This document shows, piece by piece, positions 390-9,466 of a DNA stretch of 9,712 bases. Below the pieces are notes generated by a model that saw only the letters and a list, made by a program, of their open reading frames with translations, was not told where the DNA came from and searched no databases. Position numbers and translations under genes: made by a program. This stretch comes from a bacterium (GTDB lineage: Bacteria > JAJVIF01 > JAGGVT01), in assembly GCA_021157815.1 (NCBI GenBank), contig JAGGVT010000219.1, forward strand, positions 1 through 9,712. The letters run 5' to 3'. Positions within the stretch are counted from its first letter, which is position 1. Each line of letters starts with the position of its first letter.

Positions 390-671
390 CTAATGGAATA
401 TTCTCGTTACGCTCTCAACATTATCAAGAAAACCATCAAGCGTCCCGTGGCTGCCATCATAGAAATCGATTAGGCTGGAGAATCCGATGTAAAGAAGCGT
501 TATCCCTGTGATTACAAGAAATACGGTTGATATCCATGTCTGCGCCAGGCCTTTCTGGAGACCCTCTGTCGCGAAAAACAGCGCGGCAAATCCGCCTACA
601 ATAAAAACGGCACAAAGGACATAATAAAATTGTTCCATGCTGTTTGATATACCCAACAGTACTTGCTCCAT
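390..671 (-). CDS. Small two-helix membrane protein, unknown function
   Basis: A 93-residue protein that I do not recognise. Residues about 15-34 (FYYVLCAVFIVGGFAALFFA) and 47-67 form two hydrophobic helices, separated by a short loop with one Glu and one Lys (residues 35-46). The C-terminal 25 residues are soluble and acidic (DFYDGSHGTLDGFLDNVES). This predicts an inner-membrane hairpin protein. I start it at the ATG at 669-671 because AGAGGTG lies 7 nt upstream; a TTG two codons earlier has no such support. It is monocistronic: a strong hairpin at 791-820 separates it from the gene upstream and another follows its stop. A perfect 8-bp inverted repeat (698-715) lies just before its ribosome site. 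Coding status rests on the clear Shine-Dalgarno and the regular two-helix pattern. Confidence 0.7.
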   Translation of the reverse strand: MEQVLLGISNSMEQFYYVLCAVFIVGGFAALFFATEGLQKGLAQTWISTVFLVITGITLLYIGFSSLIDFYDGSHGTLDGFLDNVESVTRIFH

Positions 672-715: not shown

Positions 716-790
716 TTCAATTAATAATATCCAGAATTAACCTGAATCATGCACTATATTTCTTTACATAAAAAAAATCAGACAATGCAA

Positions 791-820
791 AATAGCAGAG
801 GGTCTAAACCCTCTGCTATT
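791..820 (-). terminator. Strong hairpin terminator after the TOPRIM-like gene
   Basis: A perfect 13-bp stem, AATAGCAGAGGGT (791-803) with ACCCTCTGCTATT (808-820), loop CTAA. It lies 29 bp beyond the minus-strand stop at 849. T residues follow on both strands (ATTTTGC on minus, ATTTTGATT on plus), so it may act in both directions. Confidence 0.75.
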
Positions 821-848
821 TTGATTCCACTGGATATCAAATTTTGGT

Positions 849-1916
849 TTAAATATCTTCCAGTTTATCTTTCTTTTTACGCTCTTCTCGTGTTTCCGGT
901 TTGAACGTTCTTTCGCCAAGGTTCGATTTCACAAACCAATCTGCAACATACGAACCTTCCGGCAGATTTTCCAGGCGCATGACCATATCATGATTCTTGA
1001 ACTGCTGTTCAAGCGCATGCGCTTTCTGTTCCCAGTTCGGGAATTTCCTGTCTGTTTGGTCAACAATCAATACCGGTTCAACATTGATGAAAAGCTTGAG
1101 CCATTCCTCCTCGATGTTAAAATCACGAATCGCAATTGCCTCAAAACCCTTCTCAACTACCACAAGAACATCCTCCTCCTTGGACAGTATATTCAGCCTG
1201 AATCGGCTCGGATAGAGGAAAAAAACTTTCTTGCGCTCCCTTTCGAGAATTTCCTCGAACAGGTTGGAATTATATGGAAATGGAATTTTGTCACCCAGCC
1301 TGATATATCGCCTGATGTCAAGTTCATGGCGTTCGTCCTGCGATAAAAGCGCACGGAAGGACAAATAACAGATTTCATCATCACGCAAATAGGGAAATAC
1401 CAGGACAGGAACATTTTTCTCCGCCCACTCCTTCATATACGATATCCCGGCTGATTGAAGTTCCTCCAGCGAGAATCTTTTTGTCAGAACTTGCGCGGTG
1501 TCCATAAGGTCTTCAATAAATCCAACCTTGAAATCCTCCTGGATTTTCGCGGGAATACCGCTAGCCTCAAGGTCTTCTATCACATCTTTCGGAGCTGGAT
1601 AGCTTAATTCATGAATTGCCCGCCAAACGCCAAATGCGGCAGGTTGAAGATTCGGCAGTTCAATGTTGTGGAGTGTTGGGCGTTCCTTCTTGGCATCCTT
1701 TTCAGCCTGAAGCTTATCCCGCTCCCATTGTGTTTTCTGCTCGTTCAGAAGCAGCTCAAGTGAATCGTCCTTCTGTACTTTTTTAGCTATTGTATCAGCT
1801 TCCGCATCTGATTTGCCATGCCGCAATTTTTCCTTCTCCTGTTCAAGCTTATCCTTCTCCTGCTTTTCCTCCTGTTTCGATTTCTCATCATCTTTTCGGC
1901 GTCTTAGTACTTCCAT
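849..1916 (-). CDS. Coiled-coil protein with divergent DnaG-type primase core/TOPRIM domain
   Basis: A 355-residue protein. Residues 5-80 are almost all Lys, Glu, Asp and Gln: a long charged helix. Residues 93-165 resemble the N-terminal part of the DnaG catalytic core (AFGVWRAIHELSYPAP, then EDLEASGIPAKIQEDFKVGF, then FSLEELQSAGI). Residues 170-330 follow the TOPRIM order: VLVFPYLRDDEICYLSFRAL, RYIRLGDKIPFPYN, VLVVVEKGFEAIAI (Glu255), VLIVDQTDR (Asp286, Asp289) and LPEGSYVADWF. In canonical DnaG these read VEGxxD and DxDR, so each catalytic motif appears to carry one extra residue. No zinc-finger or helicase-binding domain is present. The start ATG has GGAG 8 nt upstream. It has its own good promoter (2044-2072) and a terminator. 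Inference: a nucleic-acid-associated, perhaps catalytically altered primase-like protein. The family call is by eye and could be wrong in detail. Confidence 0.65.
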   Translation of the reverse strand: MEVLRRRKDDEKSKQEEKQEKDKLEQEKEKLRHGKSDAEADTIAKKVQKDDSLELLLNEQKTQWERDKLQAEKDAKKERPTLHNIELPNLQPAAFGVWRAIHELSYPAPKDVIEDLEASGIPAKIQEDFKVGFIEDLMDTAQVLTKRFSLEELQSAGISYMKEWAEKNVPVLVFPYLRDDEICYLSFRALLSQDERHELDIRRYIRLGDKIPFPYNSNLFEEILERERKKVFFLYPSRFRLNILSKEEDVLVVVEKGFEAIAIRDFNIEEEWLKLFINVEPVLIVDQTDRKFPNWEQKAHALEQQFKNHDMVMRLENLPEGSYVADWFVKSNLGERTFKPETREERKKKDKLEDI

Positions 1917-2043
1917 TTGTCTTTCTCCAGAAGTTGGTAAATTGTTTGGGCTTTACAGCACACTACTCTCCTGTTTAATTCGTGTGAAATCAGATGTTTT
2001 GTGTTTATAAGAGTTGTGCATCAGCAATTTAATATCATATATA

Positions 2044-3472: not shown

Positions 3473-3551
3473 GTAATATGAAAAACCAACACTTTGTTTT
3501 CCCCTGGAAATAGAGAAAGTGTCTCATAACTCAATTATAAGCAAAAAGGTT

Positions 3552-3661
3552 TGTCATTCTGAGCGCAGCGAAGAATCTATTTGCTACTGTGTTGATGATT
3601 AAATCTGATGAAATTAATCTACACTATCTAAAATAGATCCTTCGCTTCGCTCAGGATGACA
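3552..3661. repeat. Two-arm palindromic repeat (TGTCATTCTGAGCG...type)
   Basis: The left arm at 3552-3579 begins TGTCATTCTGAGCGCAGCGA; the complement of the right arm at 3634-3661 begins TGTCATCCTGAGCGAAGCGA. Over 28 positions they differ at three. Two of these (positions 7 and 23) pair with each other inside the arm, changing T-A to C-G; the third lies in the apical loop. I recognise this family as widespread in intergenic DNA of several bacterial phyla. The 54-bp centre is AT-rich and non-coding. Confidence 0.75.
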
Positions 3662-3750
3662 GAAAAAACAACGTTCCAAGACAGCTTCATGAGAAGCCGG
3701 GCTACAATATAAGGCGCTTCAATAAAGAATGTGGGTTATTTGCCCTCCCG

Positions 3751-4155: not shown

Positions 4156-5130
4156 ATGGCGGATATCGTTACGCCAGAAGAGATTCAGGCTTTACTTGGC
4201 GCTCTTGAAAAGGGTGAACTTCTCCCTCCTCTTGAAGATAAGGAGATGTTTGGCCGTTTTGTCAAGGAGTATGATTTCAAACGCCCTGACAAGTTCTCCA
4301 AGGATCAGCTGCGTGTACTGCAGATGATTATTGAGGGATTTGCAAGAAGCTGGGGAACATTCCTGTCCGCCAAAATGGGATCGCTTGTTCTGATTGAAAT
4401 AGACAAAATCGGACAGCTGACCTATGAAGAATATCTAAGGGGATTGTCACATCCGTGGGTAATAATTATTTTCTCAGCGGGACCGCTTCAAGGCAACGCT
4501 CTTTTCGAATTCAGCCCGACTCTTACTTTCACTATTCTTGATAAACTGCTTGGCGGGTATGGTGGAACCTACGACACTGTAAGAGAACTGACTGAAATTG
4601 AGGAAGCTATTTTCTCAAGCGTTGTAAACGACGGATTAAGATATTTCAGGCAAAGTTTGAAGGATGTTATCAAGGTAAACACAAGAATAGAATCAATTGA
4701 ATCGAATCCGCAATTCGTACAGATTGTACCGCCGGCAGAAATTGTTCTGTCGGTAACGCTTGAAATGAAAATCGATGAAACATCAGGGCTTCTGGGATTA
4801 TGCTTCCCGTTCATGCTGCTTGAGCCGATTGCAAATGAGCTTAAAACAAAAAGCTATTTCAGCTCGCAAAGAGAACCTGATAAATATAAACCTCAAATCC
4901 TGGACCATTTGAAAAGCGTCAAGCTGCCTGTTTCGGGCAAATTGGGCTCAGTAAAACTGGTCGTGCGCGATGTTCTTGATCTTGAGGTTGGAGACATTAT
5001 TAAACTCGACACACTGGTTAAGGACCCTATTGACATTCAGGTGAAGCGGAAAACCAAGTGGTCTGGTCGCGCTGGATTAAGCGGAAACTTCCGCGCGGTA
5101 AAAATCGAAAAGGAATTTGATGACTTCTAA
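4156..5130 (+). CDS. fliM: Flagellar motor switch protein FliM
   Basis: 324 residues, the normal FliM length. Residues 1-20 ([20 protein letters not shown]) are the conserved N-terminal segment that binds phosphorylated CheY. Residues 40-230 are the CheC-like middle domain, with the LLGGYGG loop at 131-137 and [11 protein letters not shown] at 143-153. Residues 248-318 are the C-terminal SpoA domain that packs with FliN/FliY in the C-ring. FliM couples CheY-P binding to reversal of motor rotation through FliG. The start is fixed by the N-terminal motif; GAGGTG lies 14 nt upstream, a rather long spacing. Its stop TAA shares one base with the ATG of fliY. No fliG, fliL or fliP lies beside it in this window, so this is a short, detached switch cluster. 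Confidence 0.96.
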
Positions 5131-6206
5131 TGCCACCGGATTCACTCGACAATTTCTTCGCCCAATTGATTAACACAGCTGCTGAAGTCGCTCAGACCCT
5201 TGCCGTTGGTGAGAAACCAAAAATTAAATTCACCGGTGCGAGGAATATCTCTGGCGAGGAAATAACACAACTGATGCAGTCGAACCAGGTATTCAAAGCT
5301 GATTTCGGCGGTGAATCCGAAGGCAAACTCATCATGGTAATTCCCGAAACTCTTGCTCTTGCCCTGTCCGGTTCATTGATGGGAGCGGACAAGCCGGTGA
5401 GTTTCGGCTCAGCTGAAAAGAGCGCGGTTTTTGAATTATTAAACAACATTGCCGGAAGATGGGCGCTTTACTGGGGAGAAGCTGTAGAGGATAAATTTGC
5501 AATTACATCACCGGAGATTCCCGACCCTCCAGTTGAAGGGCCGGCATCGGATGAAACCTGGGTTGAAGTCAGCGCGGGGGTTGTAATTGGAGAGGATGAA
5601 TCCTCGTTAAGATGTTTTTTTCCCGTTCAATTTGTGGATGCAACAGTAAAAAAACTCGGTTTGCCGCTAAAGGCACCGGAGGAAATCATGGATGAAGAAA
5701 CCACCAAAAATGAGGAATCTGAATCTGTAGAAGAAGAAAAAACTCCTGATGAGCAGGTGGATACAACTGAGGAAACTGAAATCCCAGATGAATCCCAGAC
5801 GCCAATTGAGGCTGAACCGCCAGCGGAACCACCAGTGAAACCACCAGTGGAACCACCAGTGGAACAATCAGCGCATATTCAGCAGGCTCAGTTTTCTCAA
5901 CTCACAGACAATAAACAGGAACCCGCGGATGAGGATTCGGATAACCGCTCGATAAACCTTATCATGGATGTTCCTTTGCTGGTCTCAGTTGAACTTGGCA
6001 GAAAAGAACTTTCCATAAAGGACATCCTTGAACTCTCCCCCGGAAGCCTTATCGAACTCAACCAGCTTGCCGGTGAACCTGTTGACCTGCTTATAAACGG
6101 CAAACTGTTCGCTCGCGGCGAGGTTGTTGTGATTGACGAGAACTTCGGAATCCGTGTAACCGCCATAATTTCACCGCAGGAACGCGTGGAGAAAATGCGC
6201 CAGTGA
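5130..6206 (+). CDS. fliY: Flagellar motor switch protein FliY (long FliN with CheC-like N-domain)
   Basis: 358 residues against about 100-140 for a minimal FliN. Residues 1-180 are a divergent CheC/FliY-type domain: [20 protein letters not shown] (65-84) and [11 protein letters not shown] (102-112) fit its helix pattern. The CheC phosphatase Glu-Asn pair is not clearly conserved, so phosphatase activity is uncertain. Residues 183-272 are a disordered Glu/Pro/Thr-rich linker containing five tandem four-residue repeats. Residues 280-350 are a strongly conserved SpoA domain ([51 protein letters not shown]). It forms the base of the C-ring with FliM. The ATG overlaps the fliM stop (TAATG) and there is only a poor ribosome site, so translation is probably coupled. 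Its own stop overlaps the cheY GTG by four bases. Confidence 0.93.
5814..5873 (+). repeat. 12-bp in-frame tandem repeat in the fliY linker
   Basis: Five 12-bp units encode a Pro-rich EPPx/KPPV/EPPV series. The three central units (5826-5861, GAACCACCAGTG type) are almost identical and the outer two are diverged. The length keeps the reading frame, so gain or loss of a unit would change linker length only. Confidence 0.85.
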
Positions 6207-7352: not shown

Positions 7353-8051
7353 TTAGAAATCGAGATCAAGGCCTTTTTCTTCCTTCTTTTCCTCGACAAC
7401 TTCTTCAACAACGGTTTCAGGTGTATCCTCAACCAGTCCGACCGGCTCATCGGGTTTTGCAACCTTGGCGCGTTGGCTTTCCTCAACTGCCGCCTCGTAG
7501 GCCTCGATATCCTTCTGGTCTCGTTTTATCTCATCCGCCTTTCTTCCCTCTCTTTTGGCATCACGCGCGATTTTACTGGTTACCACCTTGCTTGCCCAGT
7601 GAGATTGAATCTCAGCGACCTTCGCGTTTATCTTTCTCAAACTATATTCTGCATTTTCGCGAGAGCGTTTTTCCTCTTTGATTTTCTTTTTATTAGCTTC
7701 GATACTATTCAGAAGGAGCTCTACATTATCGCGTAGAATCTTTTCCTCCTTTGTTTTTTTCTCCAAATCCTCATTGATGAGGTTCATCTCCTTGCGAATT
7801 CGCCCCGCTTTCAACTGGTTCTCCTTGAATTCCTCATCCAGTTCGGAAATCGAGGATTCCTGTTTTTCCAGTTCAGCCTCAAGGGCCTTATTTTCTTCCT
7901 CCTGTTTCAGGATGTCATCATCAAGGCGTGCGTTTTCCTGTTCCTTGTCGGCTTTCGACTTCATCCCGCTTTGAATCTGCCCTTCGAGAAGGTCAATATC
8001 CTTTTTTAGCCGAAGTATTTCCTTTTGTATCTGGCGTTCGCTCATTGCCAT
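7353..8051 (-). CDS. Coiled-coil protein with HWxSK motif (second paralog)
   Basis: 232 residues, family not recognised. Residues 5-148 are a nearly unbroken heptad-type coiled coil rich in Lys, Glu and Leu. It ends in NAEYSLRKINAKVAEIQSHW followed by ASK (HWASK at 151-155). A basic helix follows (156-185), then an acidic tail (EDTPETVVEEVVEEKKEE) ending GLDLDF, which could be a binding peptide. No signal peptide or membrane helix is present, so it is cytoplasmic. It lies 52 bp after the first coiled-coil gene on the same strand and is last in the operon. The start ATG has AAGGAG 13 nt upstream, which is long; the ATG two codons later is not better placed. A role as scaffold or partner of the Hsp70-SBD-like protein is inference only. 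Confidence 0.78.
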   Translation of the reverse strand: MAMSERQIQKEILRLKKDIDLLEGQIQSGMKSKADKEQENARLDDDILKQEEENKALEAELEKQESSISELDEEFKENQLKAGRIRKEMNLINEDLEKKTKEEKILRDNVELLLNSIEANKKKIKEEKRSRENAEYSLRKINAKVAEIQSHWASKVVTSKIARDAKREGRKADEIKRDQKDIEAYEAAVEESQRAKVAKPDEPVGLVEDTPETVVEEVVEEKKEEKGLDLDF

Positions 8052-8103: not shown

Positions 8104-8775
8104 TTATCGGTTATATATCTTTGACAGCCAGTGATCTTCATATTTTGCAAGAAGGTCACGCGCTTTTACATATTCACCGTTAATCTTGTCATGCTTAAAA
8201 GCTTCTTCCTTCAGAACTTTTTCATATTTCTCAATCTGCGCCTGAATCTCATCAATCTTCTTTTTCAGTTTGGCGATAACCTTTTCCCTGCCTTCCTGTT
8301 CTTCCTTGACAGTTGCAAGTTCCTTCCTTGTGTCTGTAAGCTCAAGTCGCACTTTGAAGTTCTGATTTTCCTTACGGTCAACCTTTTCCGCAACCGTTTC
8401 AATGTCTTTTCTGAGATTCGTCCCCTGAACTTTCAGGCGCTGGAGATTTTCTTTCAGCTCGATATTCTTCTTCTGAACTTCCCACTTTTCATGCTCAATG
8501 CTGTCCAGCTTGCCCTGAATGTCTCCCATGATCTTCTCAAGCCGCGTCAGCTCACCATGTGTGACAGGCGTATCACCCATGTCGATATGCATGCCCGACC
8601 TTGACGCCTGTCTTGGAGCGACTTTGGGAATATGCGCGGTTGGCACGCCGCGGCGGCCCGCTTTCTTCTGCGCGATTTCCAGCTCTTTTTGAAGCTTCGT
8701 GTTCTTCTGCTTCTCAATCTCCAACTGCATTCGCAGATCTTGTAATTCTGTTTTAAGTTCGCTGACCTCGTCCAT
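8104..8775 (-). CDS. Coiled-coil protein with C-terminal HWxSK motif (first paralog)
   Basis: 223 residues, family not recognised. Residues 1-38 form a short coiled coil. Residues 39-75 are a basic, Gly/Pro/Ala-containing flexible linker (KKAGRRGVPTAHIPKVAP). Residues 76-212 form a long coiled coil with hydrophobic heptads. The protein ends in INGEYVKARDLLAKYEDHW then LSKIYNR; HWLSK is at 215-219. The N-x-E-Y, AK and HWxSK positions match the neighbour at 7353-8051, spaced two residues closer, so the two are probably diverged paralogs. It is not GrpE: there is no C-terminal beta domain. GGGAG lies 6 nt before the ATG. It is 82 bp downstream of the Hsp70-SBD-like gene with no terminator between, consistent with one operon. 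Confidence 0.78.
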   Translation of the reverse strand: MDEVSELKTELQDLRMQLEIEKQKNTKLQKELEIAQKKAGRRGVPTAHIPKVAPRQASRSGMHIDMGDTPVTHGELTRLEKIMGDIQGKLDSIEHEKWEVQKKNIELKENLQRLKVQGTNLRKDIETVAEKVDRKENQNFKVRLELTDTRKELATVKEEQEGREKVIAKLKKKIDEIQAQIEKYEKVLKEEAFKHDKINGEYVKARDLLAKYEDHWLSKIYNR

Positions 8776-8857: not shown

Positions 8858-9466
8858 TTAACCCTCATCGTCTTTCTTCTTTGCGTCCTTGCCTTTTGAA
8901 TTTTTCTTTTCTATCTCATCACTGTATTTTATCCCCAATTCCTTTTCCATGTCTTGCATTTTTTCTTCCAATTTTGTTATTTTTTCAAGAAGCACATCTT
9001 TCTCCGGGAATTCCCGATTCCTTCTCGCGGGTTTCTTGCCTGGAATCCCGGGTTCAATTGATGTCTCAGAGGGAATCCGAAAAGTGGCATTGGAGGCTTT
9101 CTTGCCAGGATCATCTTTAATGGAAATATGCAGCAAATTATCTGAGTCAACTGAAAAGATTATATCCAAAAGCGCCTGCCCTTCCTTGTTCAGGCGAATA
9201 TTCTCCAGTCCTACCTCGCCAAGAAAAACATTCTCATCGACAAAATTGCTTTCACCGACAAAGACCTGAATTTTAACCTTGCTGTATTCCTTCAAGCGAG
9301 CCAGAAGGCGCATCGATGATTCCTCGCATGGCAAACGGCTGCCCTTGGGCAGAAAAACACGCATCGAACCATCTGGCAACGCCATCCCAATCGAACTGGT
9401 CAGGCGTCCCGTGGAAGGAGCTTGTTCCTTGTCAGTTGTTTTCTGATTCGTTTCCTGGTCAGCCAT
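8858..9466 (-). CDS. Stand-alone Hsp70 (DnaK) substrate-binding-domain-like protein
   Basis: 202 residues. Residues 22-131 align by eye along the whole DnaK beta-sandwich substrate-binding domain: SSIGMALPDGSMRVFLPKGS matches SLGIET..GVMTTLIAKNT; KVKIQVFVGESNFVDENVFL matches VTIHVLQGERKRAADNKSL; then LLDIIFSVDSDNLLHISIKD matches IEVTFDIDADGILHVSAKD. The ATPase domain and its linker are absent; a polar 20-residue segment precedes the domain. The helical lid is replaced by a Pro/Arg linker, a short coiled coil (155-178) and a Lys/Asp tail. It could bind unfolded segments or serve as an adaptor, but cannot cycle with ATP by itself. It is first in a three-gene operon. No good ribosome site precedes the ATG: a run of eight T lies there, with AGGA 26 nt away. 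Confidence 0.85.
   Translation of the reverse strand: MADQETNQKTTDKEQAPSTGRLTSSIGMALPDGSMRVFLPKGSRLPCEESSMRLLARLKEYSKVKIQVFVGESNFVDENVFLGEVGLENIRLNKEGQALLDIIFSVDSDNLLHISIKDDPGKKASNATFRIPSETSIEPGIPGKKPARRNREFPEKDVLLEKITKLEEKMQDMEKELGIKYSDEIEKKNSKGKDAKKKDDEG

Follow-up and report, generated by a model that had tools for sequence, protein, structure and literature searches.

Animal mitochondrial Twinkle carries a helicase domain and an N-terminal primase-like domain that is degenerate, having lost its zinc-binding cysteines and its primase activity (PMC7231222, PMC3610141). This inactive domain has kept a DNA-binding role. Bacterial replicative DnaG possesses a zinc ribbon, an RNA polymerase core fold with a catalytic Glu, and a helicase-binding domain, while the small TOPRIM proteins RNase M5 and RecR have no primase core. 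We located stand-alone short primases of about 340-400 residues on chromosomes of Fibrobacter and on plasmids of Candidatus Manganitrophus; they combine a CHC2 zinc ribbon, a DnaG-type core, and a TOPRIM domain and have no helicase-binding domain. A literature search using the phrases stand-alone and second DnaG-type proteins found no papers on them.

We analyzed a 9,712-nucleotide stretch of bacterial DNA (contig JAGGVT010000219.1, hereafter the window), in which the minus-strand open reading frame (ORF) 849-1916 encodes a protein that, judged from its sequence, is a degenerate form of a known primase type. The Fibrobacter (L039, L131) and Manganitrophus plasmid (WDT77860.1) primases are its nearest rows in the tree; they are likewise short and tail-less and align with it through the core and TOPRIM (residues 116-331). 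Their zinc ribbon and their EGxxD, DxDxxG, and D-x-N motifs are intact, whereas none of these is intact in our protein, which starts with a charged helix instead. Its structural model shares the RNA polymerase core fold with replicative DnaG (Z 13-15), yet the protein lacks the zinc ribbon, the helicase-binding domain, and the catalytic Glu, and a DnaG-only profile misses it. The model also matches the Twinkle primase-like domain (Z 11), although our protein is separate from any helicase domain, is bacterial, and has lost different residues. With RNase M5 and RecR, it has only the TOPRIM fold in common (Z 6-8), and the sequences are not close.

The gene and its chromosomal setting

ORF 849-1916 is a real gene, with 355 uninterrupted sense codons, a Shine-Dalgarno-like sequence ahead of its ATG (Table 1), and a codon usage resembling that of neighboring housekeeping genes when compared within the window. 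It occurs once in its own genome, a 3.2-Mb assembly in which contig C26 is the whole window. One flank holds a dihydroorotate/dihydropyrimidine dehydrogenase-like gene, beyond which lie genes for flagellar FliM, a FliN-type protein, and a CheY-like receiver; these surroundings are chromosomal. The FliN-type protein (5130-6206, plus strand), encoded directly 3' of FliM and before the receiver, has a weak CheX-like match at its N terminus and a Pro/Glu-rich linker. On the other flank, a gene with a Shine-Dalgarno site (390-671, minus strand) encodes a small membrane protein of about 93 residues without a family match.

Because a perfect hairpin lies downstream, the ORF is apparently monocistronic, and no operon partner hinting at its role was seen in the gene context. 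A terminator scan made no call at this hairpin (788-823). It is related to a second hairpin at 326-357 (83% alike over 29 nt), and both minus-strand genes at this contig end are followed by one of the pair.

The window also contains a 121-bp near-palindromic, MITE-like repeat (3548-3668; TCATTCTGAGCGCAGCGAAG...CTTCGCTTCGCTCAGGATGAC) with 57 matches at about 40 places in the genome (some matched on both strands) and up to 98% identity. Farther along, a 202-residue protein (8858-9466, minus strand) matches the substrate-binding domain of Hsp70 (PF00012, profile positions 393-559) without an ATPase domain and is adjoined by two long, charged, coiled-coil-like proteins (7353-8051 and 8104-8775).

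Since the genome encodes a normal DnaG on contig C19, the cell's priming is independent of the 849-1916 protein. Contig C99 of the same genome encodes a CHC2-like/TOPRIM/helicase-type protein with intact TOPRIM motifs (L129 1108-3354), which probably belongs to a mobile element.

Table 1. Positions in the window of the 849-1916 gene, its flanking signals, and the parts of its product
Feature	Position	Strand	Basis or remark
Perfect 16-bp hairpin with 4-nt loop, 3' of the ORF, terminator-like	788..823	-	Sequence
ORF for a degenerate relative of stand-alone primases, 355 aa	849..1916	-	Single copy; host-like codon usage
TOPRIM domain, residues 241-331	924..1196	-	Strand-helix order, fold searches, profile
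Motif III position, Y323-V-A-D326 (relatives D-[IV]-N-[ED])	939..950	-	Alignments
Motif II position, D286-Q-T-D289, then extra residues (relatives DxDxxG)	1050..1061	-	Alignments
Glu255, C-terminal end of TOPRIM helix 1	1152..1154	-	Model, alignments
Motif I position, S245-K246-E247-E248-D249 (relatives E-G-x-x-D)	1170..1184	-	Alignments
N-terminal part of primase core (DNAG_N-like), residues 92-240, with low-confidence insert at about 208-236	1197..1643	-	Profile alignments, model
Charged helical head, residues 1-80	1677..1916	-	Composition; helices 2-33, 39-46, 51-77 predicted
GGAG, Shine-Dalgarno-like, 8 nt 5' of ATG	1925..1928	-	Upstream sequence

Relationship to stand-alone short primases

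Searches with the 849-1916 protein, alone or without its head, gave nothing significant in Pfam (DNAG_N and Toprim included), NCBIfam, PHROG, or PDB sequences, and tblastn against phages returned nothing. Scanning genome and viral contigs for patterns from the query also turned up no relative, but such scans depend on exact matches to short peptides, so this is only weak evidence that relatives are absent. A tblastn search linked residues 106-321 to proteins of Candidatus Manganitrophus plasmids (E=1e-11), and genome G153 yielded a CHC2-TOPRIM protein in a whole-genome search. Searching around genome G092 revealed proteins of 325-430 residues across many genomes of one family, which named Fibrobacter contigs identify as Fibrobacter-type. 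In such genomes (L039 4995-6119, L131, L134-L149), the stand-alone primase has intact motifs and, where present, occurs about once per genome, and in L039 and L020 it is flanked by murB-like and transglycosylase-like genes. The Fibrobacter stand-alone primase is a resident second DnaG-type protein.

A profile built from 18 stand-alone primases, with the query left out and the search size set to 1000, matched residues 116-331 of the 849-1916 protein at 62.8 bits (E=1.4e-18), whereas none of 2000 shuffles scored above 6.5 bits. This bears out the initial annotation, in which a DnaG-type core was seen to be followed by TOPRIM, although the comparison with DnaG core and TOPRIM families that it proposed was positive with this profile and negative with Pfam and with a DnaG-only profile. 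The latter scored 4.5 bits, lower than several shuffles, and the protein is therefore no copy of the cell's own DnaG.

In a sample of 385 genomes, a family profile whose alignment contained the query (so that the query's own score is not independent) exceeded 200 bits only in G000, G153, and the Fibrobacter family, and all others scored at most 87 bits. No ortholog was found in this sample or in three other genomes of the same class. The tree places the protein loosely beside the stand-alone group, without a supported position; its branch, at 2.6 changes per site, is very long. Collectively, the alignments and profile matches indicate that the 849-1916 protein shares descent with stand-alone short primases of the Fibrobacter/Manganitrophus type and is divergent.

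The N-terminal CHC2 zinc ribbon, recognized in the relatives by PF01807 matches, is absent, as was noticed at the outset, and C183 is the sole Cys; the protein is thus a diverged descendant that falls short of the full family architecture. The head occupies the position of this ribbon and is highly charged (46 of 80 residues are K, R, D, or E; 23 basic and 23 acidic), and its helices were predicted by single-sequence AlphaFold at low overall confidence. No second copy of the head exists elsewhere in the genome. Its earlier description as a charged coiled coil holds for the charge alone, since the best a/d hydrophobic count of its heptads was no better than that of shuffled sequences (P=0.47). 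We therefore rejected a canonical coiled coil and prefer the term charged helix. About 25 residues follow TOPRIM, leaving no helicase-binding domain. The missing tail had been rightly recorded, but since none of the stand-alone relatives has one, its absence does not speak for degeneration.

Predicted fold

An AlphaFold model of residues 92-345, guided by an alignment of 39 relatives, reached a pLDDT of 75.4 and a pTM of 0.75, while the single-sequence prediction (pLDDT 43) was unusable. The guiding alignment consists of true primases and biases the fold, so that the model supports the register of the motifs and is no independent proof. Its best PDB matches were the catalytic cores of DnaG (Foldseek E=9.6e-7; Z 15.1, RMSD 4.0 over 221 residues), followed by human Twinkle (Z 11.1), T7 gp4 (Z ~11), and then TOPRIM-only proteins. 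The Rossmann-like strand-helix order of TOPRIM is present in this alignment-guided model, and the fold searches agree with it. A strand at 241-244 leads into S245 and a helix at 247-255 ends at Glu255, in agreement with the alignments.

Altered active-site positions

Conservation was counted in up to 94 relatives, for some positions in the stand-alone set alone (n=17-18). At motif I, the relatives have Glu (94/94), Gly (91/94), and Asp (94/94); our protein has S245, K246, and D249, so that only the Asp is kept. At motif II, the first Asp (18/18 stand-alone relatives) is kept as D286, and the second (also 18/18) corresponds to T288 or to a displaced D289, depending on the alignment. About 3-4 extra residues follow DQTD, and the conserved Gly that comes next is gone. 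If an insertion precedes D289, this residue can be read as the second Asp, and one metal position may survive. At motif III, the Asp present in 91 of 92 relatives is replaced by Tyr323 and the Asn of all 17 stand-alone relatives by Ala325. The Gly after TOPRIM strand 2 (93/94) is Asp265. The initial annotation had correctly called both TOPRIM motifs changed, motif II included; its DQTDR-for-DxDR reading as a one-residue insertion fell short of what the alignments show, and the loss at motif III was missed.

Set against the established chemistry of primases, two-metal catalysis appears unlikely in a protein that has neither the Glu nor the motif III Asp and has probably lost the second Asp of motif II as well. 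Positions important to the fold are retained in number (L116, I121, G157, P175, Y176, R188, P214, N216, L251, A260, W272, and F276), which speaks for a protein that would still fold. A changed, probably inactive DnaG-core/TOPRIM fold, as had been proposed, agrees with the profiles, the relatives, and the predicted structure. Neither EGxxD nor DxDxxG occurs in any reading frame of either strand here, and the primase profile match is confined to the frame of the ORF; the motif loss is therefore no frameshift artefact.

A probable non-catalytic pseudo-primase and its rivals

The reading that we favor, and consider reasonably probable, is that the 849-1916 protein is a non-catalytic pseudo-primase. 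It would be a divergent stand-alone short primase, now resident in the chromosome, in which a charged helix stands in place of the zinc ribbon and the metal-binding residues of all three TOPRIM motifs are missing. Such a protein would make no primers, given residues that argue against priming. The protein might still work by binding: most plausibly, the cleft of the retained core would take up a nucleotide or single-stranded nucleic acid, or the charged head would bind a partner. Among known proteins, animal Twinkle, with its inactive but DNA-binding primase domain, comes nearest to such a role. We further regard it as conceivable, at somewhat less than even chances, that the chromosome domesticated a stand-alone primase of the mobile-element type, which lost its active site and zinc ribbon, acquired a charged helical arm, and turned to a new non-priming role in binding or regulation.

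The main rival, which we hold to be unlikely although worth weighing, is that the gene is a relic, namely, a stand-alone primase gene that a mobile element left behind in the chromosome, where it has lost its function and is drifting, its frame open by chance. The plasmid location of relatives, the intact-looking CHC2-TOPRIM-helicase gene still on contig C99, the lack of an ortholog in the three other genomes of the class, and the very long branch are all consistent with drift. However, 355 consecutive sense codons with a good Shine-Dalgarno site and host-like codon usage argue against it, as does the pattern of change, in which the losses hit catalytic positions, many residues of the fold are retained, and the front end was exchanged in frame for a long charged helix.

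A second rival is an altered but active enzyme, in which D249, D286, D289, and D326, together with E247/E248, would form a shifted metal site of a nuclease or nucleotidyl transferase. D249 and D286 are indeed kept at positions that are invariant in the relatives, and E247, E248, D289, and D326 supply further acids near the site. We nevertheless deem this improbable, because the invariant Glu has become Ser, the near-invariant motif III Asp has become Tyr, and the conserved Gly residues of the motifs are also lost; nothing was found in support of the new nuclease-like variant suggested in the initial annotation.

The register first assigned to the motifs, with VEKG in place of VEG as motif I, Glu255 as the catalytic Glu, and DQTDR as motif II, each through a one-residue insertion, has a surface resemblance to the letters of the translation and can be set aside as very improbable, since the alignments place G257-F258 on the family's helix-end Gly-hydrophobic pair (L-G-F in Manganitrophus), 12 residues past motif I, the distance from E255 to motif II is 31 residues where about 42 are expected, and residues 247-255 are helical in the model. 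Counted from S245, the spacing is 41 residues, next to 42 in Manganitrophus. The alignments also pair the block GFEAIAI-RDF-NIEEEWLKLF with GFSAIGSPGSWGFNEAWLNLF. Motif I thus shows substitutions (Glu to Ser and Gly to Lys) rather than an insertion, and the proposed clustering of Glu255, Asp286, and Asp289, judged here from strand and helix order, was not supported.

If the domesticated, non-priming role holds, the 849-1916 protein would parallel, in bacteria, the dead primase domain of Twinkle, and if it is under selection, it would represent a free-standing bacterial pseudo-primase. When a replication enzyme has lost its activity and kept its fold, the dead copy reveals which parts of a primase are important beyond catalysis. 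The protein also draws attention to the little-described stand-alone short primases of Fibrobacter chromosomes.
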